Translations under genes and position numbers: made by a program
The notes under the pieces: model-generated
Database searches by the model: none
What the model was told of the DNA's origin: nothing
The model's input: the letters and a program-made list of their open reading frames with translations, nothing else
Part shown: in pieces, positions 1 through 11,115 of the stretch
Layout: each line of letters starts with the position of its first letter
How positions within the stretch are numbered: the stretch's first letter is position 1
Source: Candidatus Dadabacteria bacterium
GTDB taxonomy: Bacteria; Desulfobacterota_D; UBA1144; Nemesobacterales; Nemesobacteraceae
DNA length: 64,000 nucleotides
Direction: 5' to 3'
Assembly: GCA_009837205.1 (NCBI GenBank)
Contig: VXTZ01000022.1
Location: 1 to 64,000 of the forward strand

Positions 1-60
1 TGGTGGCGCACATAAGGCAGAACTTCCGCAAGTGCGAGTGCAGGAAGTAGGGAGAATTTG

Positions 61-2820
61 TCAGATTGATAGCGGCGTTGTTTTCGGCAACATCTTTTTT
101 TTCTCCGAGAACCTTTTCCTTATATCAATTACGGCTTGGGTGATCTCTGCGGGCAGGGATTCGAGTTCCTCTCCCGTTTCCGCCCGCACCGCGTGCCAGA
201 GCGGTTCCATGGTTTCAGTCAGGGCAGGATGGCTTTCCATTATCTGCATGACCTGTTGGCTCCAGCCGGCCGCCGTGAGATTGATTAGGGATTCCGTCAG
301 ATCATGCGTGTTCCAGTATCGTTGGCCGACGGCGACGGAAAGCGCTCGGTCAAGTTTTTCAAGAGCTGCCATCCAGTTCCCGCAGCGGGCCAGTACATCG
401 GAGACCGTATGAAACGCGGCAGGTTCCTCCGGCATCAGTTCCGCCGCGCGGCAAGCGTAGCGTTTCGCTTCTTCCAGGCGCGCAACGTCGTCACTCCTGA
501 GAATCGCCTCCGCCCTGACGCGCCAGGCCTCGCCACACTCGGGGTCGAGTTCTGCTGCCTTTTTGCAACCTGATTCCGAGTTGTCATAACATCCCAGCAA
601 GTTGGCAATATTGCTCCTAGTGGCCAGCAGCTTAGCGAATTTCTGACGCGTATCTACCGGATCTTTCATATAAATATATTCTGAAAACCGGCCGTGGGAA
701 GTGATCCAGTCTTCAAACCGCCCCAGTTCCAAATATGCGGTGTCCAGAGCAAACAACGCTAGACTGGCACCGTAACGTAATGTTGCCGAGTCATCGGTAC
801 GAACATATTGAGTGAAGCTTTCCAAAATGGAGACAACTTCATCATAACGCTTTTGTGCGACAAGGACGTTTCCTTTCTCGGCGAGCGTCTTGATAAGCGC
901 CAGGCGCAACCATTCCGGATCGTCCGGGCGGACATATTGCGAAGCTTGTCGCCAGGTCGCGAGAGCTTCTTCGTGATGATCCTTTTCCGAGAAAAATTCG
1001 CCAAGAAGCCGAAGCCATTCAGTGGCTGCATAGCGTAGAGGGTGCGGGTCGTCCTGATTTACAAGCTCCGGAATTTTCCCTATAACGTTTGAGGCATCGC
1101 CAGAATTTTCCAGAGTGAAAAGAATTCCGGCCTCTGCAATCAGAGCTCCAAGTGCGTAAATCCGCAACTGTGCGGCATCATCGGGACTGACAGCCTCGGT
1201 TACATGCCTGAACGCATCGAGGGCATCCTCAAAATGCTTTCTTCCTCCTAAGGCGAAACCAAGAAGAAACCGAGCAAAAAGATTCTCCGGTTCTTGCCTG
1301 ATTGTCTCTCTGCACTCGGTTTCCGCCTCCACGAAGCGCTCAGACTGGAGTAGCTCGATGCCGCGACAGACCTTATCCGAAAAACAATCCAAATCTAACT
1401 GGTACTGCCGGGAGATATCCCGCACTATTTCGCCAAATGCTGACACGTTCGCGCCGTTCGTGCCGATAGAATTGATTATCAGGTTAAAGGCATTGTTCAG
1501 CCAGTCTTCGCGTTCCGTGAAACCACTGTCGTTCGCCGCATAGGGGATCAGGGCTCCAAGCAGTTCAGGCGCCTCTTCATCCTTAGAGACCCCGCTGCTT
1601 AACTTCTCAAGAGTCGCCAGATACATCGACCGCATCGGAACCGGGCCGAACAGATCGTTGAGGAAGTCTACCAGCAGCTTCAGGCGTCGATATCCCCGCC
1701 GCGAGAAACGCAGCAGGAAGTAGATGTTGTAGAACCGGTCGGCAACCTCGTACCGGATACGCTTTTCCCTCTCTGGCCGCGCTTCCCTGGCGTATCCCTT
1801 GTCCACCAGCTGCTTGAGCTGGGCGCTTGTGTGAGATGAGGAAAGCCTGGCCGCGGCGGATACTTCCTTCGCGAGCATGGGACTCCATCCCTCCGCAAGG
1901 CAATGAAACACCTTTCGGGACTGTGTCGGCAGCTCCTCAATGCGGGACTTGAAGTACGGAGTCTGTTCGTCGATTAGCTGTTCCAAGTCCTTGAACGCGG
2001 AACCGAGCGGCGACTCAACCAGAATTCCGTAGGTCAGCACCAGCAGCCGCGGGTTTCCTCCGGTCAGGCGGCGCATGGTCTCGATTCGCCCGCGTTCGCG
2101 GCTCAGTGTCTCGGTGACCTCAGTTTTGCCTTCACGTTCCGCGAGGGCTCGGAAGATCTGAAGATACTCTTCGCACCCAAGACCTTCTAGAAGAAAAACC
2201 CGGAAAAACTCGTAAAACGGTTCGCCGCGGTGCCGTATGGCCTCGAAGACGGCGTTTGCGGAACCGATCAGCAGTATCTCCGGATGTTCGATCAACGAAG
2301 CCCGCAAAGCGTGGACTTCGCGCTCATCACCCAGTTGTGAGAAAACGATGTCAAGATTTTCGACAAACAGAATCAGCCTCTTTCCGCTTCCTCGGGAGAA
2401 ATCAATAAGAACCGAGAGCGCGTACGCGGCAAGGCGCTGCGGATCCTTCTCGTCGGCCGAAAGCGCTTCTGCCTTGTCCTCCCATCGGGAATCCCGAGTG
2501 GCGCGGGTCAGGTGATGCAGGGCCGTAAGCCAGAAATCCGCCAGGTCGGTCACCTGATAGCTTTCCTCGTGAAACGCCACGGGCTGCCATGCTTCTGCAA
2601 GATCGGGCGTTTCGCGTACCGCTTGGAGAAACCGCAGACCGAGGGTGGTTTTGCCCATCCCCCGCGAACCGACAAGCAGCATGTGCTGGCACGGTCGGTC
2701 GGTTTTCTGCTCGTCCAGGAGGCGAAGCATCTCAGTGAGGGTCTCCTGACGGGCGACGAAGGAAGCCTTGAGTTCTTCCGGGGAGAGTTGGGCCGGGTTG
2801 TAGATACGTCTTTGCTTCAT
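61..2820 (-). CDS. AAA/STAND-like ATPase with TPR-type C-terminal half
   Basis: Large P-loop NTPase, 919 aa. Residues 51-59 carry a Walker A motif (GSRGMGKTT) and around residue 155 there is a Walker B-like strand (LILFVENLD). A winged-helix-like part follows, and the C-terminal half (from about residue 500) is helical with TPR-like repeats. This layout resembles STAND regulators or defence NTPases, where the repeats sense a ligand and the ATPase switches. The start at 2820 is chosen because its ATG overlaps the stop of the upstream ATPase gene (ATGA); an in-frame ATG 36 nt further up is less likely. The two genes form one operon that may continue past the left edge. No catalytic effector domain is visible. 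The function is unknown; defence is inferred only from the neighbourhood. Confidence 0.75.
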   Translation of the reverse strand: MKQRRIYNPAQLSPEELKASFVARQETLTEMLRLLDEQKTDRPCQHMLLVGSRGMGKTTLGLRFLQAVRETPDLAEAWQPVAFHEESYQVTDLADFWLTALHHLTRATRDSRWEDKAEALSADEKDPQRLAAYALSVLIDFSRGSGKRLILFVENLDIVFSQLGDEREVHALRASLIEHPEILLIGSANAVFEAIRHRGEPFYEFFRVFLLEGLGCEEYLQIFRALAEREGKTEVTETLSRERGRIETMRRLTGGNPRLLVLTYGILVESPLGSAFKDLEQLIDEQTPYFKSRIEELPTQSRKVFHCLAEGWSPMLAKEVSAAARLSSSHTSAQLKQLVDKGYAREARPEREKRIRYEVADRFYNIYFLLRFSRRGYRRLKLLVDFLNDLFGPVPMRSMYLATLEKLSSGVSKDEEAPELLGALIPYAANDSGFTEREDWLNNAFNLIINSIGTNGANVSAFGEIVRDISRQYQLDLDCFSDKVCRGIELLQSERFVEAETECRETIRQEPENLFARFLLGFALGGRKHFEDALDAFRHVTEAVSPDDAAQLRIYALGALIAEAGILFTLENSGDASNVIGKIPELVNQDDPHPLRYAATEWLRLLGEFFSEKDHHEEALATWRQASQYVRPDDPEWLRLALIKTLAEKGNVLVAQKRYDEVVSILESFTQYVRTDDSATLRYGASLALFALDTAYLELGRFEDWITSHGRFSEYIYMKDPVDTRQKFAKLLATRSNIANLLGCYDNSESGCKKAAELDPECGEAWRVRAEAILRSDDVARLEEAKRYACRAAELMPEEPAAFHTVSDVLARCGNWMAALEKLDRALSVAVGQRYWNTHDLTESLINLTAAGWSQQVMQIMESHPALTETMEPLWHAVRAETGEELESLPAEITQAVIDIRKRFSEKKKMLPKTTPLSI

Positions 2821-4028
2821 GGCTCCATCCCCCCTGACCGGTTTTTCCGCCACCACTCCCTAAGCAGGTTCGATCTGAAACACACATGGGAGCCGTCCCG
2901 CCGCACGTACCCGTCCGATTCCAGATTGCGAAGCGCCGAGAGAAGCTCGCTTTCGCCCTGCCGGGTCAGTTTCTCAATATCCGAGATGCGCGCACCGTCT
3001 CTCCGCCGACAGGCGTGATTGAGTATGTCGTGCGCCGCTTCCTGCTCGTCTGCGTCAAGCATGATTTCCAAGCGGGCTGCGTAATGGTCAAGATGAGGCG
3101 TGCCGCCAGGTCCCGTAAGCCTTTCCGTGAAGCATCGCTCTATTGCACTTTCGGAAACGCGCGAGGGGTCCCCATTGCAGGATTGGCGAAGGGTCGAAAA
3201 AAACAGTTGCAGGTGATAGGGAACCGGATCCGAGAGGAGGTCGAGAATTTGTGAGACGCTACGTTCGTCCATGCGGAAGCCATAACTGTCTCCAAGCTCC
3301 TCCAGAAACTTAACTGCGACATCCCGGTCCCATGAATCCAGCTGGAAAGGGGCCAGATCGTTTATTAATCCCGAAAGAGCAAAGCGTCTGAGAACGCCTT
3401 CAAGCCCGATGGACCCGCCGATCAGTGTGCACACCTTCCCGCGCATCTGCGGAGACTGGCGCCAGCGCCGGAACCCGGACAGCAGCAACTCGACATCATG
3501 TTTTCCTTCGAGGGTTTTCAGCATGCGCGAGACGAGTATCGGAAACTCGTCGAGGATGATCAGGAGGCTGCGACCGGGATCCGGCAGACTCTCAAGACGT
3601 TCAAGAAGCTGATCCGCTGTACGTTTCCAGTCCCGGCCGATCGCCCTTTTGAGTTCAATGCGGACTTTTTCGATGCTGACGGAAACTTCGGAAAAGGAAA
3701 ATGTGCTCTTGAGCGTGTCTACTACGGTCTTTGCGAACGGAATTTTTTCGATGCCTCGGCGGTACTCCGGGTTCACCGCCAGAGCGGCGACAATTGCCGC
3801 CAAGCAATCCGCCGAATCTTCGGCACCTTCAACATCCACATAAAAGACATCCCAGTTTTCCCGAGGTTCGCGACGAAGTTCCAACATGAGGCTGGTCTTC
3901 CCGACCCGTCGCGGGGCAAGCATCAGAACATGCTCTCCCTGCTCCAGTTTTTCCCATAGCAGTTCCAGTTCGGATTCTCGTCCGTAGAGGTCTTCGCCGA
4001 TTACCGCCTGTCCTGTAATGTTTTGCAT
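2817..4028 (-). CDS. ATPase_2-like P-loop ATPase
   Basis: A 403-aa ATPase of the archaeal-type ATPase_2/AAA family. Walker A is APRRVGKTS at residues 38-46 and Walker B is LLIILDEFP at 155-163; a winged-helix segment lies in the last 80 residues (SELLSALRNLESDGYVRR). It is the first gene of a two-ATPase operon and overlaps the next gene by ATGA, so the products are probably made in matched amounts and may work together. The ATG at 4028 has a GGGAG ribosome site 8 nt upstream and a good promoter behind it. These ATPases are common in archaea and sporadic in bacteria, which suggests transfer. The substrate is unknown. Confidence 0.75.
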   Translation of the reverse strand: MQNITGQAVIGEDLYGRESELELLWEKLEQGEHVLMLAPRRVGKTSLMLELRREPRENWDVFYVDVEGAEDSADCLAAIVAALAVNPEYRRGIEKIPFAKTVVDTLKSTFSFSEVSVSIEKVRIELKRAIGRDWKRTADQLLERLESLPDPGRSLLIILDEFPILVSRMLKTLEGKHDVELLLSGFRRWRQSPQMRGKVCTLIGGSIGLEGVLRRFALSGLINDLAPFQLDSWDRDVAVKFLEELGDSYGFRMDERSVSQILDLLSDPVPYHLQLFFSTLRQSCNGDPSRVSESAIERCFTERLTGPGGTPHLDHYAARLEIMLDADEQEAAHDILNHACRRRDGARISDIEKLTRQGESELLSALRNLESDGYVRRDGSHVCFRSNLLREWWRKNRSGGMEP

Positions 4029-4062
4029 CCGCTCGACTCCCGTTCAGATCAGGATGGAAAAC

Positions 4063-4091
4063 AGAATACATGACAAGGGGTTTTTTGGCAA
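4063..4091 (-). promoter_or_regulatory. Promoter of the two-ATPase operon
   Basis: On the minus strand TTGCCA (-35, 4086-4091) is followed after exactly 17 nt by TATTCT (-10, 4063-4068). Transcription would start near 4056, giving a leader of about 28 nt before the ATG at 4028. Confidence 0.55.
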
Positions 4092-4118
4092 TAAATTTTT
4101 TGGCAAAAAGTTTATTGC
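4088..4118. promoter_or_regulatory. Inverted repeat overlapping the -35 of the ATPase operon
   Basis: GCAATAAA (4088-4095) and TTTATTGC (4111-4118) form a perfect 8-bp inverted repeat 15 nt apart. The left arm overlaps the -35 element of the promoter for the two-ATPase operon. It looks like an operator, but no regulator gene is adjacent in the window. Confidence 0.35.
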
Positions 4119-4165
4119 TATAGGGGAATCCACAGAAGATGCTATCGTCGCACTTCCACGAAATC

Positions 4166-4260
4166 CAAGGCAATCATTCAGGTCCAGAAAACCCGACAGA
4201 CGCACAGTCAGTTTTTCAGCACAGCGGAAAACGGCGAAACACTATACACCCAAAGCGTAG
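4166..4260 (-). pseudogene. Frameshifted 3' remnant of a second copy of the 201-aa island gene
   Basis: Translated on the minus strand this stretch gives RFGCIVFRRFP and, after a frameshift, AEKLTVRLSGFLDLND. The intact gene at 5847-6452 ends RFGRIVFRRLP ... AEKRAKRLSRFLNSKD. About 23 nt are missing between the two blocks relative to the intact gene, which breaks the frame. Homology stops near 4260, so only the C-terminal part of a diverged paralogue remains. In the intact operon an MBL hydrolase gene follows at this point; here the two-ATPase operon follows instead. Confidence 0.6.
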
Positions 4261-4407
4261 TCACCATCACTCATCGCCTTTCGCCCCAGGACATGTCCGC
4301 CACGCACTTTCCTAGCTTCGCTCGCTCATCAGAAGCTCCTTCTCCCGCAGCCTCCCAGCCACTTTTTTTTCTTCTCGCGCGCCCTTTTCCTTATTATATA
4401 TAAGAGC

Positions 4408-4575
4408 TCAGACTCCCCTTTCCTCAAGGCCCGGGGGAAGTTCTCCGTAATAGGGAGAGTCCTCCTCGTACATCTCAAGGACTTTATCCTTCGGCATGTC
4501 GCACATATCTTCCGTGAAACCGAACATCCTGCATATGTGGCGAAGCTCCTCCTCCCTCCCCGGAAGCGGGTCCAT
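4408..4575 (-). repeat. Direct repeat copy 1: detached 3' end of the nitroreductase gene
   Basis: This 168-bp block matches 7495-7662, the last 55 codons plus stop of the nitroreductase gene, at 163 of 168 positions. The five differences are all third-base and synonymous (Gly, Gly, Glu, Lys and Val codons), so the encoded peptide (MDPLPG...LEERGV) is identical. The block runs exactly from an in-frame ATG to the TGA. No ribosome site precedes it, so it is probably a displaced gene end left by insertion of the 4576-7494 segment rather than an expressed gene, although a small gene cannot be excluded. Confidence 0.85.
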
Positions 4576-4755
4576 GTTATGACGGAACAAGCATTTTTCC
4601 TGATTAGGTTGTTTCTAGTTTTATTCACAGCATCGTGCACAGTTGCTAAAGCTGGCAAGAGGGGTGAAACGGACATGAAAGATTTTCTTTGAAGTAAAAG
4701 TCATGGGTTGGTGCGTCAGATAAGATTTTTAGACAAAATTAATCTGTCGGACTTA

Positions 4756-5850
4756 TTATCGTCTACTCCAAACACCCTTGAGATGAGTGGCGTTACCGAA
4801 CAATTCAACTGACCAATCAGGTTCTGAGTTTTTAAGGCAGCGACGCAATCGCACATGACCCTGTTTTGGGTAGGCTTTGCGAATTCCCCATCCATATCGA
4901 CGAATTGTTTTTTCGACCGAATTATTGCGTTTGGTTGAAGCAGTTGAAGTTAATCGTGCGGAAGAATAGGCCTTAGTTGTTCTTTCCCGTATACGTTTAA
5001 CATCTTCCTTGCTCGGGAGAGGCTTACGACCTCGACTGAATGGTGTGAGTATGGCAAATGGAGTCGGTATGAGCAAGTTTTCCCAAATATCAGCAAATTC
5101 TCCAGTTTTCGAACCGTGATGTGCAACCTTGTACACGGAAGATTTTGTATTTTTTATGGATTGAGAGTCGTTGGCAATAGCTGACCACCCTCCTCCAGGC
5201 ATCTCCTCAAGATCCGCACCCAGCAATATTGCGTCGTCACCCAAATCAATTAAAAGAGCCACTGAAATATCATTTGGTCGCATGTCTCCCATTCTTGTTC
5301 TGGTCGTGCCTAATTCCGGTATTTTCTCAGCCAAGCGTGACAAAAAACTTGCAATGCGTTCATTTGACGGCGAAAGTGCAAATACCTTCACATTCTTCTC
5401 GGTTTTTCGAATCAGAGTGTCTGTCAGCAAAAATTTTGGTTTCTTTCCTCGTTGCTCTAAAATCTCCAGAATTTTTATAATTTCTTGCGTTGATCTCGCG
5501 CTAGGGGCGGGATCAGTTTCTGCGTAAACCGCGGCAAACCCGAGGAACTCCTCTCCACGAAGAGCCATTGCGCAGCAGAAATCTGCGAACTCGCAACAAT
5601 CAACCACTTCGGATAGGCCACCGATGTGATCATCATGCCAATGGGTAGCTATAACATGGGAAACTTGTTTAGCGAAATCAACCCCTATTTTGTTCAAGTA
5701 GGCGACAGCCGAACTCTGGGATTGACTGTTCTCCTCTAGGCAAGAATCAACGATAATCCATTCACCGTCGCCGATGTGAACAACAATTGACTCTCCGTAG
5801 CCGGGACCGATCAATGAAACTTCTATGACATCGGAAGGAGGAGCTTTCAA
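4756..5850 (-). CDS. MBL-fold hydrolase, ComEC/Rec2-like
   Basis: Metallo-beta-lactamase fold protein, 364 aa. The metal-binding signature THWHDDHIGG is at residues 69-78, a later strand carries LLGADLEE, and KVAHHGSKTGE supplies a downstream histidine, as in the hydrolase domain of ComEC-type proteins. There is no membrane segment, so it is a free soluble hydrolase. It is the last gene of a three-gene operon and its ATG overlaps the stop of the gene before it (ATGA). Family members cut phosphodiester or ester bonds; a nuclease or nucleotide hydrolase is plausible here. The C-terminal 90 residues are basic and serine-rich, which would suit nucleic-acid binding. The role in the island is unknown. 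Confidence 0.8.
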   Translation of the reverse strand: MKAPPSDVIEVSLIGPGYGESIVVHIGDGEWIIVDSCLEENSQSQSSAVAYLNKIGVDFAKQVSHVIATHWHDDHIGGLSEVVDCCEFADFCCAMALRGEEFLGFAAVYAETDPAPSARSTQEIIKILEILEQRGKKPKFLLTDTLIRKTEKNVKVFALSPSNERIASFLSRLAEKIPELGTTRTRMGDMRPNDISVALLIDLGDDAILLGADLEEMPGGGWSAIANDSQSIKNTKSSVYKVAHHGSKTGEFADIWENLLIPTPFAILTPFSRGRKPLPSKEDVKRIRERTTKAYSSARLTSTASTKRNNSVEKTIRRYGWGIRKAYPKQGHVRLRRCLKNSEPDWSVELFGNATHLKGVWSRR

Positions 5851-6452
5851 TCTTTTGAATTGAGGAAGCGGGATAGACGCTTCGCTCGTTTTTCAGCACG
5901 GTGAAGAGTGGAAGATGTCCAACCTGGTAAACGGCGGAACACAATACGTCCAAAGCGTTGTTGTCGCCCATTGGGACGTATTGAGCGACCCACTGTCAAA
6001 TAGAACACAGCACCTATTTTGAGCAATTCCTGATCATCGTCTGAAATGTCCTCAATCGGAAGTTCCGCCATCTCGCTTGGGTAGTTTTCCTCGTTTGTCA
6101 GGTCGCGTAATCGGGCAGTGAAATTTTCATCTCCCACTGTTTCGACGATACCTTCCCAATCCTGAAGTATCCTGTCTTGAGGTACTTCCGGTGGCGATTT
6201 TGGATTTTTAATCTCTGGAAAAGCAAAAGGAGCATATACATTTAACTCCGTATTCTTGTCGATTTTCTGCGGCAAAAGTCCTACCCTGTTTGAGTGCTTG
6301 TTGAATGTTGCCAGAAAAGTTTCCTCGACAGCGTCTCTGAAAACATGAATTTCGGTAGGGAACTCACCTATAACATTATCACGTCGAGACATATTATTTG
6401 AGTTAAAACCTGGTATATCTGTCCGTATAAAAGCCGCTGTGGCTATAGTCAT
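5847..6452 (-). CDS. Unrecognised 201-aa island protein
   Basis: Not recognised. The ATG at 6452 overlaps the upstream stop codon (ATGA) and the 3' end overlaps the MBL gene in the same way, so the three proteins are tightly co-translated. A longer reading from 6524 exists but the overlap argues against it. The protein is soluble, with an acidic middle (DISDDDQELL) and a basic C-terminus (RFGRIVFRRLP, RAEKRAKRLSRF). A decayed copy of this C-terminus lies at 4166-4260, so the family has been present twice in this locus. The basic tail could contact nucleic acid or the partner hydrolase; that is a guess. Confidence 0.6.
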   Translation of the reverse strand: MTIATAAFIRTDIPGFNSNNMSRRDNVIGEFPTEIHVFRDAVEETFLATFNKHSNRVGLLPQKIDKNTELNVYAPFAFPEIKNPKSPPEVPQDRILQDWEGIVETVGDENFTARLRDLTNEENYPSEMAELPIEDISDDDQELLKIGAVFYLTVGRSIRPNGRQQRFGRIVFRRLPGWTSSTLHRAEKRAKRLSRFLNSKD

Positions 6453-7171
6453 GTTCGGTATTCCTCCGTCAGCGCCATAATTTGATCCACTATTATTGCT
6501 GCCCGCTTCATTGAAATCTCCCAATTGGCTTCTAAAGCTTCAACAGCCAATGATGCATTCTGAACTGATTTTTCATTATCCATCAATTGAAATTGATTAC
6601 TCACTCCAACGAAAATACCCGTATTACCTTCAATTTTAATAGATGGCTCAACTTGGGCCTGCACGGAACTATCATACTCACCTACCTGCTGCAAATTTTT
6701 CTGGAGCATTGTAATCGAAAGCATGCCTCCTCGTTCGTATATGGGTGCGTCGTAAGATTTTTGTATTTCCTTTCCCCACTCACCCCAAGCATCTTTCGGC
6801 GCTAATCGACTGCCTACACGATCCCTGACTTCAAAGTCGCCAGTATCAAAATGAATATTTCGGTTGATACCCATAGCTACCACCGGTGTGTGGGGCAGAT
6901 ACTTCCCGAAACATGAAATTACAAGATCTTTAATATGCTCGGGGTGGTCACCAACACCGGTTACTAAAAAATGGTCAAGTCTAACCTTAAGCTCAAATGT
7001 ATCAACCCCGAAAGCACATTCTTCTTTATTTTGTAACAACATTACCGTTTTCTCGGCTTCTTTTTCTCCTATCATCCCGTGCCGAGCAAACCATGCTGGT
7101 TGAAAAATTCTCGGATTGAAAGAACCAAGCAATACAATGCTTGCGTTATCAAATTCTGGCTTGATACGCAT
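6449..7171 (-). CDS. Unrecognised 240-aa island protein
   Basis: First gene of the three-gene MBL operon. I do not recognise the family. Near the N-terminus is a striking stretch, LLGSFNPRIFQPAWFARHGM, followed by mixed alpha/beta sequence and a C-terminal amphipathic part. There is no signal peptide, membrane segment or known catalytic motif. The ATG at 7171 has an AAGG about 10 nt upstream and a promoter at 7222-7251. The last codons overlap the next gene (ATGA). The strict coupling suggests that all three products act together. Relatedness to sporadically distributed families of about 250 aa should be tested. Confidence 0.65.
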   Translation of the reverse strand: MRIKPEFDNASIVLLGSFNPRIFQPAWFARHGMIGEKEAEKTVMLLQNKEECAFGVDTFELKVRLDHFLVTGVGDHPEHIKDLVISCFGKYLPHTPVVAMGINRNIHFDTGDFEVRDRVGSRLAPKDAWGEWGKEIQKSYDAPIYERGGMLSITMLQKNLQQVGEYDSSVQAQVEPSIKIEGNTGIFVGVSNQFQLMDNEKSVQNASLAVEALEANWEISMKRAAIIVDQIMALTEEYRT

Positions 7172-7494
7172 AATTCGTATACCTTAGCTGTTTGTAAGTC
7201 AACATACCTCGCCCGACAACCACTATAACACCAAATAGGTTTTTTGGACAATCAGAACTTTCCATTCCATTTCTAATTTCATCAACTAATATTGATCTCA
7301 ACGCTACGCTCTTTCAAACATAGAGTGTTTATCCAAACGCTTCCAGTGCTGTTCTGCTTACGAGCAACTCTGCGAGAGTATCTCAAGTCCACAGAACCGA
7401 GGATGAAATCAGAAACCGCTCTATGGCTCCACAAAAACTTACCGTTGAACAATTTTTCCTGAAAGCAGCCGAAAACCGAAATTTTTTCCTTTTT
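7172..7494. other. Intergenic region between island operon and nitroreductase 3' end
   Basis: These 323 bases hold the promoter of the three-gene operon (7222-7251) and otherwise AT-rich sequence without a convincing gene, RNA or terminator. The right edge meets the 168-bp direct repeat at the nitroreductase stop codon. No integrase or transposase remnant is visible. Confidence 0.5.
7222..7251 (-). promoter_or_regulatory. Promoter of the three-gene MBL operon
   Basis: On the minus strand TTGTCC (7246-7251) and TATAGT (7222-7227) are 18 nt apart. The start would be near 7215, about 44 nt before the ATG at 7171. Confidence 0.45.
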
Positions 7495-7662
7495 TCAGAC
7501 TCCCCTTTCCTCAAGACCCGGGGGAAGCTCCCCGTAATAGGGAGAGTCCTCCTCGTACATCTCAAGAACCTTATCCTTCGGCATGTCGCACATATCTTCC
7601 GTGAAACCGAACATCCTGCATATGTGGCGAAGCTCCTCCTCCCTCCCCGGAAGCGGGTCCAT
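7495..7662 (-). repeat. Direct repeat copy 2: in-place 3' end of the nitroreductase gene
   Basis: Partner of the block at 4408-4575, offset 3087 bp. It begins at the stop codon of the nitroreductase gene and ends at an internal Met codon 55 codons before the stop. The segment between the copies is the three-gene island. Confidence 0.85.
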
Positions 7663-8376
7663 TGGTTGTATGAGTTTTTCCTCCTCAAGCTCCTTCCGCA
7701 CGTCCTGGTCCTCGGCAAGCGGAGTTCCGTACTCGTTTGAGTGATAAAGCCTGTCGAACCTCTTCCTCGGCCTCTGGCCGGGATCCTCAGCCGCGTATCC
7801 CACTGTCATGAGCCAGATGGGAACTATGTTCTCGGGAGTCCCGAGAACCTTCGGGAACTCGGCCGGCTTTCTCCCCGTGGCGATAAGGCAGCACCCGAGG
7901 CCCAGGTCAGTGGCCGCGAGCATGGCGTTCGCTATGGCCTGGCCCGCCTCGACCCTCAGAAGATCCTCCGCCCTGTCCTTGGGAAAGCTCATGAGCCTCG
8001 GATAGGTGTTCTCGGTAAGTATCTTGTAGGTCCAGCCGTGAGCGGCGGTTATGGCCCTCGCGGGAAACAGCACCTGGAAGGTCTGTATGAGCTCCTTGTA
8101 CCAGGCGTCCAGGTTTATCAGCCACGCAACGATAATCGGGGCCTGGCGCAGGTGGATCTCGTTAAACGCGGATCCGCATTCAACTATCTTCTCGAATTTC
8201 TCCGGGGGATAGGTCCTTTTGTCTATGACTATCGCCTCGGTCGAGTTGCAGTTGCCCTGGCAGGAGCAGTACCGCGCCGCCTGGAGCATCTTCTGTATCT
8301 TCCAGTCCTCAACCTCTTTCCAGGGCTTGTAGAACCTAAAGCTTCTCCTGGTGCCCATTGCTTCAAAAACTTCCAT
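7495..8376 (-). CDS. Nitroreductase family FMN protein
   Basis: A 293-aa nitroreductase-fold flavoprotein: N-terminal RRSFRFYKPW (the FMN phosphate-binding RRSxRxF motif) and a later helix with AGQAIANAMLAATDLGLGCC typical of the family. Such enzymes use NAD(P)H to reduce nitro groups, quinones or enones, or act as dehalogenases. The roughly 60-residue C-terminal extension (from DQDVRKELEEE on) is longer than the usual domain. A strong AAGGAGGG site precedes the ATG. It follows the SDR gene by 56 nt in the same direction, so the two are probably one operon. Its last 55 codons are duplicated 3.1 kb away at the far edge of the island. Confidence 0.85.
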   Translation of the reverse strand: MEVFEAMGTRRSFRFYKPWKEVEDWKIQKMLQAARYCSCQGNCNSTEAIVIDKRTYPPEKFEKIVECGSAFNEIHLRQAPIIVAWLINLDAWYKELIQTFQVLFPARAITAAHGWTYKILTENTYPRLMSFPKDRAEDLLRVEAGQAIANAMLAATDLGLGCCLIATGRKPAEFPKVLGTPENIVPIWLMTVGYAAEDPGQRPRKRFDRLYHSNEYGTPLAEDQDVRKELEEEKLIQPMDPLPGREEELRHICRMFGFTEDMCDMPKDKVLEMYEEDSPYYGELPPGLEERGV

Positions 8377-9197: not shown

Positions 9198-9241
9198 TTT
9201 TACCCCCTCGCTTCGGGTCAGAAACCCTGCTTTTTTTTAAC

Positions 9242-9283
9242 TTCCGTTATATAATAACCCATTATGAGCAACGGGAAATCCTT
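9242..9283 (+). repeat. Direct repeat copy 1: duplicated nitrilase promoter and start
   Basis: These 42 bp match 10188-10229 at 40 positions: a TATAAT box (9250-9255), the same spacer, and the first codons MSNGKS of the nitrilase. The coding difference (GGG for GGA) is synonymous, as is the next one just outside the block (TTT for TTC). Looser similarity continues upstream. The repeat pair brackets the HEPN/MNT genes. Confidence 0.8.
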
Positions 9284-9386: not shown

Positions 9387-9809
9387 ATGATTGAATACGA
9401 CAAATTTCAAAATTCCCTGAAACGCCTTGAGGAACAGTACGGAAATTACCGTGCCATAGAGAACTCTGACCTGGATTCGATAATGCGGGAAGCTGTGGCC
9501 GAGTCGGTCATACACAGGTTTGAGGTCTGTTACGACTGCCTATGGAAGGTGCTGAGACGCCACCTCGCAGAGGAGCTCGGCGTTCCAGATGCCCCAAACA
9601 GCCCGAAACCTGTTTTCAGACTGGCCTTTGAAAACAACCTTCTCCCCTCACCGATCGAAAAATGGCTTGATTACGCAAACAGCCGCATCAATACAAGCCA
9701 TGACTATGATGAGGGAAAGGCCAGAAGATGCCTTGGAATCATAAGCGGCTTTATTGACGATGCCACAGGTCTTTACGAAACAATGAGCGGAGAAACATGG
9801 AAACAGTAG
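9387..9809 (+). CDS. HEPN-like nucleotidyltransferase substrate-binding protein (HI0074 family)
   Basis: A 140-aa all-helical protein of the HI0074/HEPN type. MREAVAESVIHRFEVCYDCLW is the conserved helix of the family, followed by SRINTSHDYDEGKA near 110. In HEPN/MNT modules this protein is the toxin (often an RNase) or the partner of the nucleotidyltransferase that follows. The next gene starts 13 nt before this one ends, a coupled pair. An Rx4-6H catalytic motif typical of HEPN RNases is only loosely matched, so it may be the binding subunit rather than an active nuclease. Confidence 0.8.
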   Translation: MIEYDKFQNSLKRLEEQYGNYRAIENSDLDSIMREAVAESVIHRFEVCYDCLWKVLRRHLAEELGVPDAPNSPKPVFRLAFENNLLPSPIEKWLDYANSRINTSHDYDEGKARRCLGIISGFIDDATGLYETMSGETWKQ

Positions 9810-10114
9810 AAGCTATTGATATCTCTTCTGAGCAGCGCGGCGTTCTTCTTGCGCTGCTTAAAAAGCATCTTCCGAATACCCGCGTCTGGGTATACGGTTC
9901 CCGCGCGAGGTTTGCCGCGAAAAAGAGTTCGGATCTCGACATGGTGGTATTTGCCGGAAGCGGACAGAGAAGACAGGTCGGCGATCTTCGGGAAGCTCTT
10001 GAACAGAGCGATCTTCCGTTTCGGGTGGACCTGTTCGTGTGGGATGACATGCCGGAGAGATTCCGGGAGAAAATTGAAGGTGACCACGTAACCCTTGTTT
10101 CCCCTGACCACTAA
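9797..10114 (+). CDS. MNT-type minimal nucleotidyltransferase
   Basis: A 105-aa minimal nucleotidyltransferase: WVYGSRARFAAKKSSDLDMV gives the GSxxR and DxD metal-binding motif (about residues 34-52), and RVDLFVWDD supplies the third acidic strand. In HEPN/MNT toxin-antitoxin systems this enzyme AMPylates the HEPN toxin and silences it. It overlaps the HEPN gene and ends about 95 nt before the nitrilase. The pair lies exactly between two copies of the nitrilase promoter, so it is probably a cassette inserted there. Confidence 0.85.
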   Translation: METVEAIDISSEQRGVLLALLKKHLPNTRVWVYGSRARFAAKKSSDLDMVVFAGSGQRRQVGDLREALEQSDLPFRVDLFVWDDMPERFREKIEGDHVTLVSPDH

Positions 10115-10187
10115 ACGCAGGCGGGAGGGTCATGCTCTGGTTCCAAAGAGAGACGCAAACTCAAAATGAATCTGCATTTTCCCTGAG

Positions 10188-10229
10188 TTCCGTTGTATAA
10201 TAACCCATTATGAGCAACGGAAAATCCTT
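10188..10229 (+). repeat. Direct repeat copy 2: nitrilase promoter and start in place
   Basis: Partner of 9242-9283, offset 946 bp. It contains the TATAAT box of the nitrilase gene and its first codons. Confidence 0.8.
10196..10201 (+). promoter_or_regulatory. -10 box giving a probably leaderless nitrilase mRNA
   Basis: A perfect TATAAT ends 8 nt before the nitrilase ATG (10210) and no ribosome site lies between. Transcription would begin at or next to the start codon. No clear -35 is seen. Confidence 0.5.
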
Positions 10230-11115
10230 CACGGCGGCTGCGGTGCAGGCAGCTCCCGTTTTTCTCGACAGAAAGGGCACGGTCGACAAGGTCCTCAGGC
10301 TTATAAAGGAAGCAGCGGGAAACGGGGCTGAACTCGTGGTTTTCCCCGAGGCCTTCATACCCACCTATCCCTACTGGCCGAAGGATCTCGGGTTCGGGGC
10401 CGAGAAAAAGCTCACCATGGACGCCCACGTCGAGCTACACAGAAACTCGGTCGAGGTTCCCGGGGAGGACACCAAAAGAATCGGCAATGCGGCGAAGCGG
10501 GCCAAGACCTGCGTCGTAATAGGGGTTAACGAAAAAGAGGGAGGAACCCTCTACAACACCATACTCTACTTCGGCAAGGACGGCTCCCTTCTCGGAAGGC
10601 ACAGAAAGCTGATGTCGATTGACAGCGAGAAATGCGTATGGGCGAACGGAACCGCCGAGGACGTGAGGGTGTTTGACACCGAAATCGGGAAAATAGGGGG
10701 ACTTTTCTGCTACGAGCACCACATGACCCTTGAGAAGTACGCGATGTTCACCAAGGGGGAGCAGGTGCACGTGGGTCTCTGGGGAGGACACTCGTTCGTT
10801 AAGGACACGATGGATTTCGCGAGCCGACAGTACGCGTTTGAGGGACAGGTGTTCGTCATAATCTCAGCCGGCTTCATAGAAGAGGATATGATTCCCGACT
10901 CCTTTCCCCTGAAGGAGCATACGATCTGGGATTACCCCGGGGGAAGCGGCATAATAAACCCCAGGGGACAGTACATAATCGGCCCCGTATACGGAAAGGA
11001 AGAGATTCTCTACGCGGAGATCGAGCTTGACCAGATAATAAGGGCAAAGACCGTAATAGACTCCGTGGGGCATTTCTCAAGGCCGGACATATTCCGATTC
11101 GAGATAATGGAGTGA
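10210..11115 (+). CDS. Nitrilase/cyanide hydratase family protein
   Basis: C-N hydrolase of 301 aa with the Glu-Lys-Cys triad: FPEAFIP (Glu near 47), GRHRKLMS (Lys near 130) and GGLFCYEHH (Cys near 164). The Trp-Gly following region (GLWGGHSFV) and the C-terminal ALFDVVGHF-like SVGHFSRPDIF are typical of true nitrilases and cyanide-degrading enzymes, which convert a nitrile to acid and ammonia. It stands alone downstream of the duplicated promoter and near a nitroreductase and SDR. Substrate unknown; aliphatic or aromatic nitriles are both possible. Confidence 0.9.
   Translation: MSNGKSFTAAAVQAAPVFLDRKGTVDKVLRLIKEAAGNGAELVVFPEAFIPTYPYWPKDLGFGAEKKLTMDAHVELHRNSVEVPGEDTKRIGNAAKRAKTCVVIGVNEKEGGTLYNTILYFGKDGSLLGRHRKLMSIDSEKCVWANGTAEDVRVFDTEIGKIGGLFCYEHHMTLEKYAMFTKGEQVHVGLWGGHSFVKDTMDFASRQYAFEGQVFVIISAGFIEEDMIPDSFPLKEHTIWDYPGGSGIINPRGQYIIGPVYGKEEILYAEIELDQIIRAKTVIDSVGHFSRPDIFRFEIME

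Follow-up and report, generated by a model that had tools for sequence, protein, structure and literature searches.

Displaced gene ends at a nitroreductase locus of Candidatus Dadabacteria suggest stacked, integrase-free acquisition of defence-like cargo

Why should the 3' end of an intact nitroreductase gene (NR) occur a second time, detached, on the far side of an insert of almost 3 kb? The question is raised by positions 1-64000 of contig C22 (VXTZ01000022.1), a 64-kb stretch hereafter called the window, which belongs to the Candidatus Dadabacteria metagenome-assembled genome (MAG) G000 (1.69 Mb in 35 contigs). Comparison with relatives suggests, with a probability that we put at about 0.7, that the region between NR and its neighbour, gene X, is a hotspot gaining defence-like cargo by homologous recombination of flanking host DNA, without an integrase. 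An association of the Dadabacteria group with sponges has been suggested. The comparison set counts 15 genomes, namely the 13 of the genus (G000 itself and G001-G012), L062 (CATOTB010000001.1), whose NR is 93% identical, and G013 from a sister genus as outgroup; they are mostly MAGs, in which contig breaks at repeats conceal part of the locus, and G007 (1.59 Mb) is the sole one in a single contig. All loci are oriented on NR, and signed positions are counted from the last base of its stop codon. The features on which the argument rests are the following.

7495-8376, minus strand: NR, intact nitroreductase gene, 293 aa (PF00881; 93-99% amino acid identity in the genus); its 3' end was acquired with island A
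7495-7662, minus strand: intact replacement 3' end of NR, 168 nt (repeat search and alignment)
4576-7494, no strand: island A, 2919 nt, absent from G008 and G011 (alignments to relatives)
4408-4575, minus strand: detached 3' end of NR, 55 codons and stop, the old, displaced end (repeat search, alignments of relatives, allele comparison)
4378-4407, minus strand: old 3' untranslated region (UTR) of NR, 30 nt, still joined to the detached end (alignment to relatives)

The copies at 4408-4575 and 7495-7662 form a direct repeat of 168 nt with 97% identity; their five mismatches are all synonymous, and the 55 encoded residues are identical. Repeat search and mismatch count thus bear out what the first-pass annotation of this DNA had reported. 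Except for one 71%-identical pair, no other direct repeat of at least 60 nt is present in the window, and the 168-nt repeat is therefore not due to chance. The block had also been described as running exactly from a Met codon to the stop. As read within the window this is correct, since it starts at Met239 of NR (a gene with 11 in-frame ATGs) and finishes with the stop codon; however, relatives show that the native homology is longer on both sides. G008 has CCATGG where the intact copy of the window has CAATGG, so that homology to the native allele begins 1 nt before the ATG, while that of the detached copy continues past the stop over the 30 nt of old 3' UTR and about 4.4 kb of a second island, B. 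The exact ends of the block are partly accidental: the Met boundary because the native allele supplies one more matching base, and the apparent stop boundary because the two copies have different 3'-UTR types right after TGA.

Which of the two ends is the old one is indicated by relatives without island A. In G008 the segment from -168 to +4406 aligns throughout with window positions 4576 down to 1 (4576 nt, 98.7%), and in G011 the segment from -168 to +4398 does so at 95.8%; this is the comparison proposed in the first-pass annotation, and in both genomes NR leads straight into the DNA that follows the detached copy in the window, which makes 4408-4575 the displaced old end. A 3' UTR of the type [T/G/A]CTCTTA... 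is found in G001, G002, G003, G008, G009 and G011 and after the detached copy, an A-rich type in G004-G007, G010, G012 and L062 and after the intact copy. The absence of island A from G008 and G011, together with these UTR types, supports the earlier proposal that island A brought in the replacement NR end and displaced the old one; taken by itself, the 168-nt block is indecisive on old versus new, the intact copy differing from G008 at 2 positions and the detached copy at 3. At all five differing sites both the detached and the intact state are found in intact NR genes of other genomes, and both copies are ordinary functional alleles of the genus. The donor had been called a diverged relative; that the gene end is foreign stands, but another lineage of the same genus is the better description. 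Neither an empty site with both copies nor a duplicated block without cargo, the two observations named beforehand as contrary to the proposal, was seen at the locus. The first-pass annotation had, moreover, caught one of two stacked islands, since island B (about 53-4377) comes after the detached end.

The same site can be followed across the comparison set. In G005, G006, G007 and L062 a terminator-like stretch comes after NR, and about 80 nt further on the convergent gene X ends; X encodes a small c-type cytochrome (PF13442), and beyond it lies a gene that we take to be leuA-like; in G013, NR and X are convergent with about 95 nt between them. These five sites of 15 are empty. The other ten are occupied by varying cargo, defence- or toxin-like by similarity only, between conserved flanks. 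In 20 other Dadabacteria loci the sequence retrieved around NR was searched for X, without a match in any of them. Displaced gene ends of varying length are present in eight of the ten occupied sites, and comprise an NR end in three genomes (G000, G008, G011) and an X end in eight (G000, G008, G011, G001, G002, G003, G009, G012), with at least four breakpoints: NR -168, NR -353, X about +175 and X about +130. G001, G002 and G003 show NR, terminator, about 97 nt of X end, cargo and full X, with a common left junction (...CGATGACGG); G001 is split over two contigs, and for it this is the presumed arrangement. G009 has a shorter X end ahead of cargo of the same type, and G012 an X end, a remnant of island B with its own 39-nt X end, different cargo and full X. 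G010 and G004 showed no displaced end; their cargo begins no more than about 8 nt from the NR stop, and the G004 contig ends 775 nt on. As a separate observation, a gene at +5318 to +6484 after the NR stop of G011 (locus L036) interrupts the spacer between X and leuA; presumably it is a TnpB/OrfB gene of an IS605-type element.

As to the cargo itself, G003 and G012 encode SLFN_AlbA_2 with HATPase_c_4 in the Pfam scan, and G009 and G010 relatives of this protein, by alignment only. G012 has in addition an AAA/PHP protein matching PADLOC Ppl (E 5e-36), G004 carries HicA and a small open reading frame (ORF) without assignment, and the metallo-beta-lactamase (MBL)-fold protein of G000 resembles LmuA and the reverse transcriptase (RT)-associated MBLs of defence systems. 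Judging from these similarities, a defence role of the cargo is likely. No recombinase was found among the cargo proteins in the Pfam scan, which covered ORFs from about 80 aa upwards.

Island B, which lies beyond the detached NR end, and the contig edge next to it show the following features.

53-4377, no strand: island B, the older island, common to G008, G011, G002 and, over two contigs, G001 (alignments)
2817-4028, minus strand: gene 1 of island B, AAA ATPase-like, 403 aa (Pfam scores below cut-off)
61-2856, minus strand: gene 2 of island B, AAA_16 and TPR repeats, 931 aa (Pfam)
1-52, minus strand: displaced 3'-end fragment of gene X (cytochrome c), in the orientation of NR, at the contig edge (23-nt overlap with contig C23)

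Read from NR, the locus in G008 and G011 passes through 30 nt of UTR, island B, an X end of about 75 nt, an NR end of 354 nt and a terminator before it reaches full X. The X end beside island B resembles the X that follows B in G002 and not the resident X of G008, which indicates that B came in with its neighbours from a G002-like genome. The imported X end joins NR at -353 on CTCGGGACT(C), a match of 9-10 nt for which a random join has a probability of 3e-5. These two genomes thus show an illegitimate far join at a short match; on the recipient side of island A about one nucleotide matches. The contig of G000 stops about 11 nt short of the point of the X-end/NR join. X lies at the end of contig C23, and C22 and C23 overlap by exactly 23 nt, which are present both in the X-end fragment and in full X. 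A missing loop with a further NR end between the two contigs, as in G008, would produce this overlap, and a third copy of the NR end in G000 is therefore probable.

A comparable scar is found upstream of NR, at the start of a nitrilase gene.

9231-9283, plus strand: displaced old promoter and nitrilase start (repeat and alignment)
9387-10114, plus strand: cargo of this second site, HEPN/MNT-type pair, 9387-9809 and 9797-10114 (PF08780, PF18765)
10177-10229, plus strand: intact promoter and nitrilase start, gene 10210-11115 (repeat and alignment)

The site lies between an SDR gene and the nitrilase gene, and a 53-nt repeat (87%) flanks the HEPN/MNT-type pair. Fragment and cargo are both present in 6/14 genomes (G000, G001, G009, G010, G011, G012; the cargo match of G009 is partial), the site is empty in five (G002, G004, G005, G006, L062), and three (G003, G007, G008) have other inserts and no fragment. 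The leader retained by the SDR-side fragment resembles the one in genomes with an empty site, G011 with its differing flank being the exception, while the leader of the intact nitrilase is a different one; thus the same scar forms at a gene start. At or near this second site, close upstream of NR, DprA-like genes scoring below the family cut-off were also noted (G003:C9:173077, G008:C37:14302, G009:C2:14102, G011:C11:57205).

A single course of events could account for these arrangements. Donor DNA from another lineage of the genus, made up of a flanking-gene end and cargo, would recombine homologously with the resident flanking gene on one side and be joined illegitimately, at short or no homology, within the same flanking gene on the other; alternatively, the donor would circularise and enter by one crossover. 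By either route the gene would keep the complete end arriving with the cargo, and the old end would remain beyond the cargo, forming a direct repeat. Island A would then have been added at NR, outside the older island B, which may itself have brought in NR and X ends from a donor. In every case the intact gene adjoins the newest cargo, the old end lies with its old neighbour and the breakpoints vary, which fits one-sided recombination with an illegitimate join, or a circle with one crossover. Homologous recombination on one side of the insert may be reflected in the new gene end that came with the cargo and in the divergence between G000 and G012, which is raised beside the island: the final 400 nt of NR differ by 6.5% and the part further upstream by 0.8%, although G012 has itself changed near the island. 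Such a rise fits an imported arm of more than 168 nt, favouring a linear donor, for which we estimate odds of about 3:2 over a circle. RecA passes in 12/13 genomes, the miss being G010, which is 89% complete. The route of DNA entry, the dependence on RecA, the linear or circular form of the donor and the defence role of the cargo are the parts of this scheme that we infer.

Several observations weigh against it. No donor genome with the order NR, island A, X is known, and island A is found at this site in G000 only; likewise, the join between island A and the NR end is present in one genome only, and has almost no microhomology on the recipient side (about one matching nucleotide). The scheme also gives no role to an 11-nt sequence close to the ends of the island.

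4593-4603, plus strand: 11-nt direct repeat ATTTTTCCTGA near one end of island A
7452-7462, plus strand: 11-nt direct repeat ATTTTTCCTGA near the other end of island A

The two copies lie 17 and 32 nt inside the ends of the island and only there in the window (0/100 shuffles reach two); if ATTTTTCCTGA is the trace of cargo being exchanged later between NR ends already in place, island A could have entered in a second step. Among eight pairs of genomes, divergence rises significantly near the island in 3, falls significantly in 1 and does neither in 4, and a four-genome test of divergence near the island is weak (p 0.03, uncorrected). Canonical competence is unsupported, as dprA passes the cut-off in 0/13 genomes (weaker matches in 6/13, four of them close upstream of NR) and ComEC of G000 gives only a C-terminal match. 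Finally, homology-facilitated illegitimate recombination (HFIR) is rare in E. coli conjugation (PMC3240628).

The closest rival differs in the form of the donor. A circle with NR end and cargo, integrating by a single RecA crossover, would give the same topology; it is the main sub-variant of the explanation preferred here, and we hold it possible but on balance unlikely. Partial duplications of 109-950 bp arose in this way in E. coli (PMC3240628), a range covering 168 and 354 nt, and such circles could form anew from displaced repeats. If the homology spans 168 nt, however, the crossover would fall inside the repeat and leave the DNA upstream of -168 native, whereas there G000 differs from the agreeing G008, G011 and G012 at 8/231 sites, against 5/482 further up (p 0.03), and no circle was seen. 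By extension, since gene-end repeats flank the cargo, RecA could excise a circle with a host-gene end that would reinsert at the same gene in any relative; we consider this doubtful, distinctly more so than entry as a circle. If true, the host-gene end would be a shared attachment site, the gene would be rebuilt each time and defence genes could move without integrases or competence. Duplication of the gene end in tandem, with cargo placed between the copies later, and island A possibly by way of the 11-nt repeat, would make sense of ATTTTTCCTGA just inside both ends of island A and nowhere else in the window; it is improbable, because the copies differ in 3'-UTR type and genus alleles, in G008 the X end at the NR join moves together with island B, and no genome has duplicated NR ends minus cargo at the site. 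Only marginally less credit can be given to site-specific integration into gene ends by an integrase since lost. The model would be e14, a prophage that in E. coli K-12 displaces the 165-bp 3' end of icd with 12 changes (PMC11148124) and has the same topology; here, no recombinase occurs among the scanned cargo proteins, and in place of a fixed att core breakpoints vary within two opposing genes (NR -168 and -353, X about +130 and +175) and include the nitrilase start at the second site. No NR end is encoded in IMG/VR contigs; a viral origin of the NR end was rejected on one scan of that database, in which no relative was encoded.

Two further explanations are very improbable. In a MAG of 35 contigs, in which the contig of the window ends in a repeat, strains might have been mixed on assembly; however, a chimera needs shared sequence at the join, of which the join between island A and the NR end has almost none, and a comparable join of X end and NR end is shared by G008 and G011, which are distinct genomes with 95.8% identity over 9 kb. 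The least credible proposal is the alternative raised in the first-pass annotation, under which selection maintains the detached 55-codon copy as a small gene. Its frame is intact, its differences are synonymous only and a TTG start at 4590 would, on our reading of the sequence, have AGGA upstream. Against this, the same reading finds no close ribosome-binding site for the ATG, the detached 168-nt copy is found in 1/13 genus genomes, the stand-alone frame is unconserved across relatives and the displaced NR ends of G008 and G011 are of other length; since intact NR genes carry both states at 5/5 sites, a selected mini-gene need not be assumed. Displaced gene ends may be mistaken for small genes. 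A 34-codon NR end in G025 was considered as a scar and rejected, as it reads as an internally deleted NR paralogue.

The cargo of island A consists of three genes.

6449-7171, minus strand: gene a, 240 aa, no Pfam match (ORF and Pfam scan)
5847-6452, minus strand: gene b, 201 aa from the ATG at 6452 (225 aa from a TTG at 6524), no Pfam match
4756-5850, minus strand: MBL-fold gene, 364 aa (PF00753; PADLOC LmuA and RT-associated MBL models)

Genes a and b have no Pfam family below E 0.1. The trio a-b-MBL is found in the same order elsewhere in G002, G014 and G021, with 24-37% identity of the aligned parts (b in G014 reaches 42% over part of its length), and the module (4756-7171; homologous modules L101, L102 and L103) is a candidate defence system. 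Around the homologous modules no repeats of at least 36 nt were found in L101 and L102, and L103 has one 66-nt pair, outside the module. In PDB profile searches gene b gave no match and gene a mainly designed TPR repeats over about 37 positions, which were judged spurious. Seven relatives each have a single copy of GAACAATTTTTCCTGA, a 16-mer from one end of island A, apparently at one common locus and with no homology beyond it; this was taken as chance. An imperfect 36-nt repeat (83%, 4226-4261 and 5926-5961) connects the NR-side end of island B with the end of gene b in island A; stretches related to it lie at the NR-side cargo end in G002, G003, G008, G009 and G011.

A self-scan of the single-contig genome G007 gave 17 repeat pairs, mostly tandem or paralogous coding repeats; one scar-like pair was dropped, parts of the stretch recurring at several other places in that genome. 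A near-tandem repeat of 251 nt (98%, 90-nt spacer) at G007:C1:1033910-1034159 and 1034250-1034500 covers a gene end and has no cargo, and represents another kind of gene-end duplication.

Recombination of flanking host DNA at the NR-X site can be compared with several known systems. HFIR has been proposed for the type VI secretion system effector-immunity arrays of V. cholerae (PMC5361080), in which, as is proposed here, a module is anchored by homology on one side, older gene parts are displaced downstream and events stack; unlike there, the flanking housekeeping genes stay whole with unchanged function, the cargo is defence-like and competence genes are not evident. Rhs tips, thought to be displaced via circles (PMC2935791), offer a similar picture, with old gene ends of varied length shunted downstream by incoming ones; nevertheless, Rhs ends differ in sequence and function and are themselves the cargo, whereas the two NR ends specify identical 55-residue stretches and enclose the cargo. 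As in e14 (PMC11148124), a 3' gene end is displaced and the gene is repaired by the copy on the element, but e14 is a prophage with an integrase, while here the scanned cargo yielded no recombinase and the breakpoints are not fixed, one of them, at the second site, lying at a gene start. In the E. coli conjugation study, a search for HFIR, most recombinants were single crossovers, and 14 sequenced ones had the partial duplications already mentioned, in which a homologous end is duplicated by circularised DNA and RecA (PMC3240628); that was, however, a laboratory plasmid assay without natural cargo. The scar type is already known, and what appears new is that it lets the assembly of a putative integrase-free, stacking defence hotspot be followed; a literature search returned no title or abstract start describing this locus or gene-end scars at defence hotspots.

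Minimal Mobile Elements are cassettes exchanged between conserved genes by natural transformation, without mobility genes. Among the cargo scanned here no mobility genes were found, and competence genes are not evident. In Neisseria, such elements likewise show cargo that varies between two conserved genes (citing paper PMC2649163), as do the core defence hotspots of P. aeruginosa (PMC10250203), and for both exchange by flanking homology has been suggested; according to the P. aeruginosa paper, homology-based transfer would leave no mobile-element scars, and the assembly of such sites needs future work. The scars described here bear on how defence genes gather at fixed hotspots without mobile-element machinery. 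Unlike in the P. aeruginosa hotspots and the Minimal Mobile Elements, partial copies of the flanking genes record at the NR-X site both the events and their order; their recurrence in relatives suggests that defence-like genes can spread without an integrase of their own, and as readable marks of homology-driven acquisition such scars could be counted at the defence hotspots of any species.

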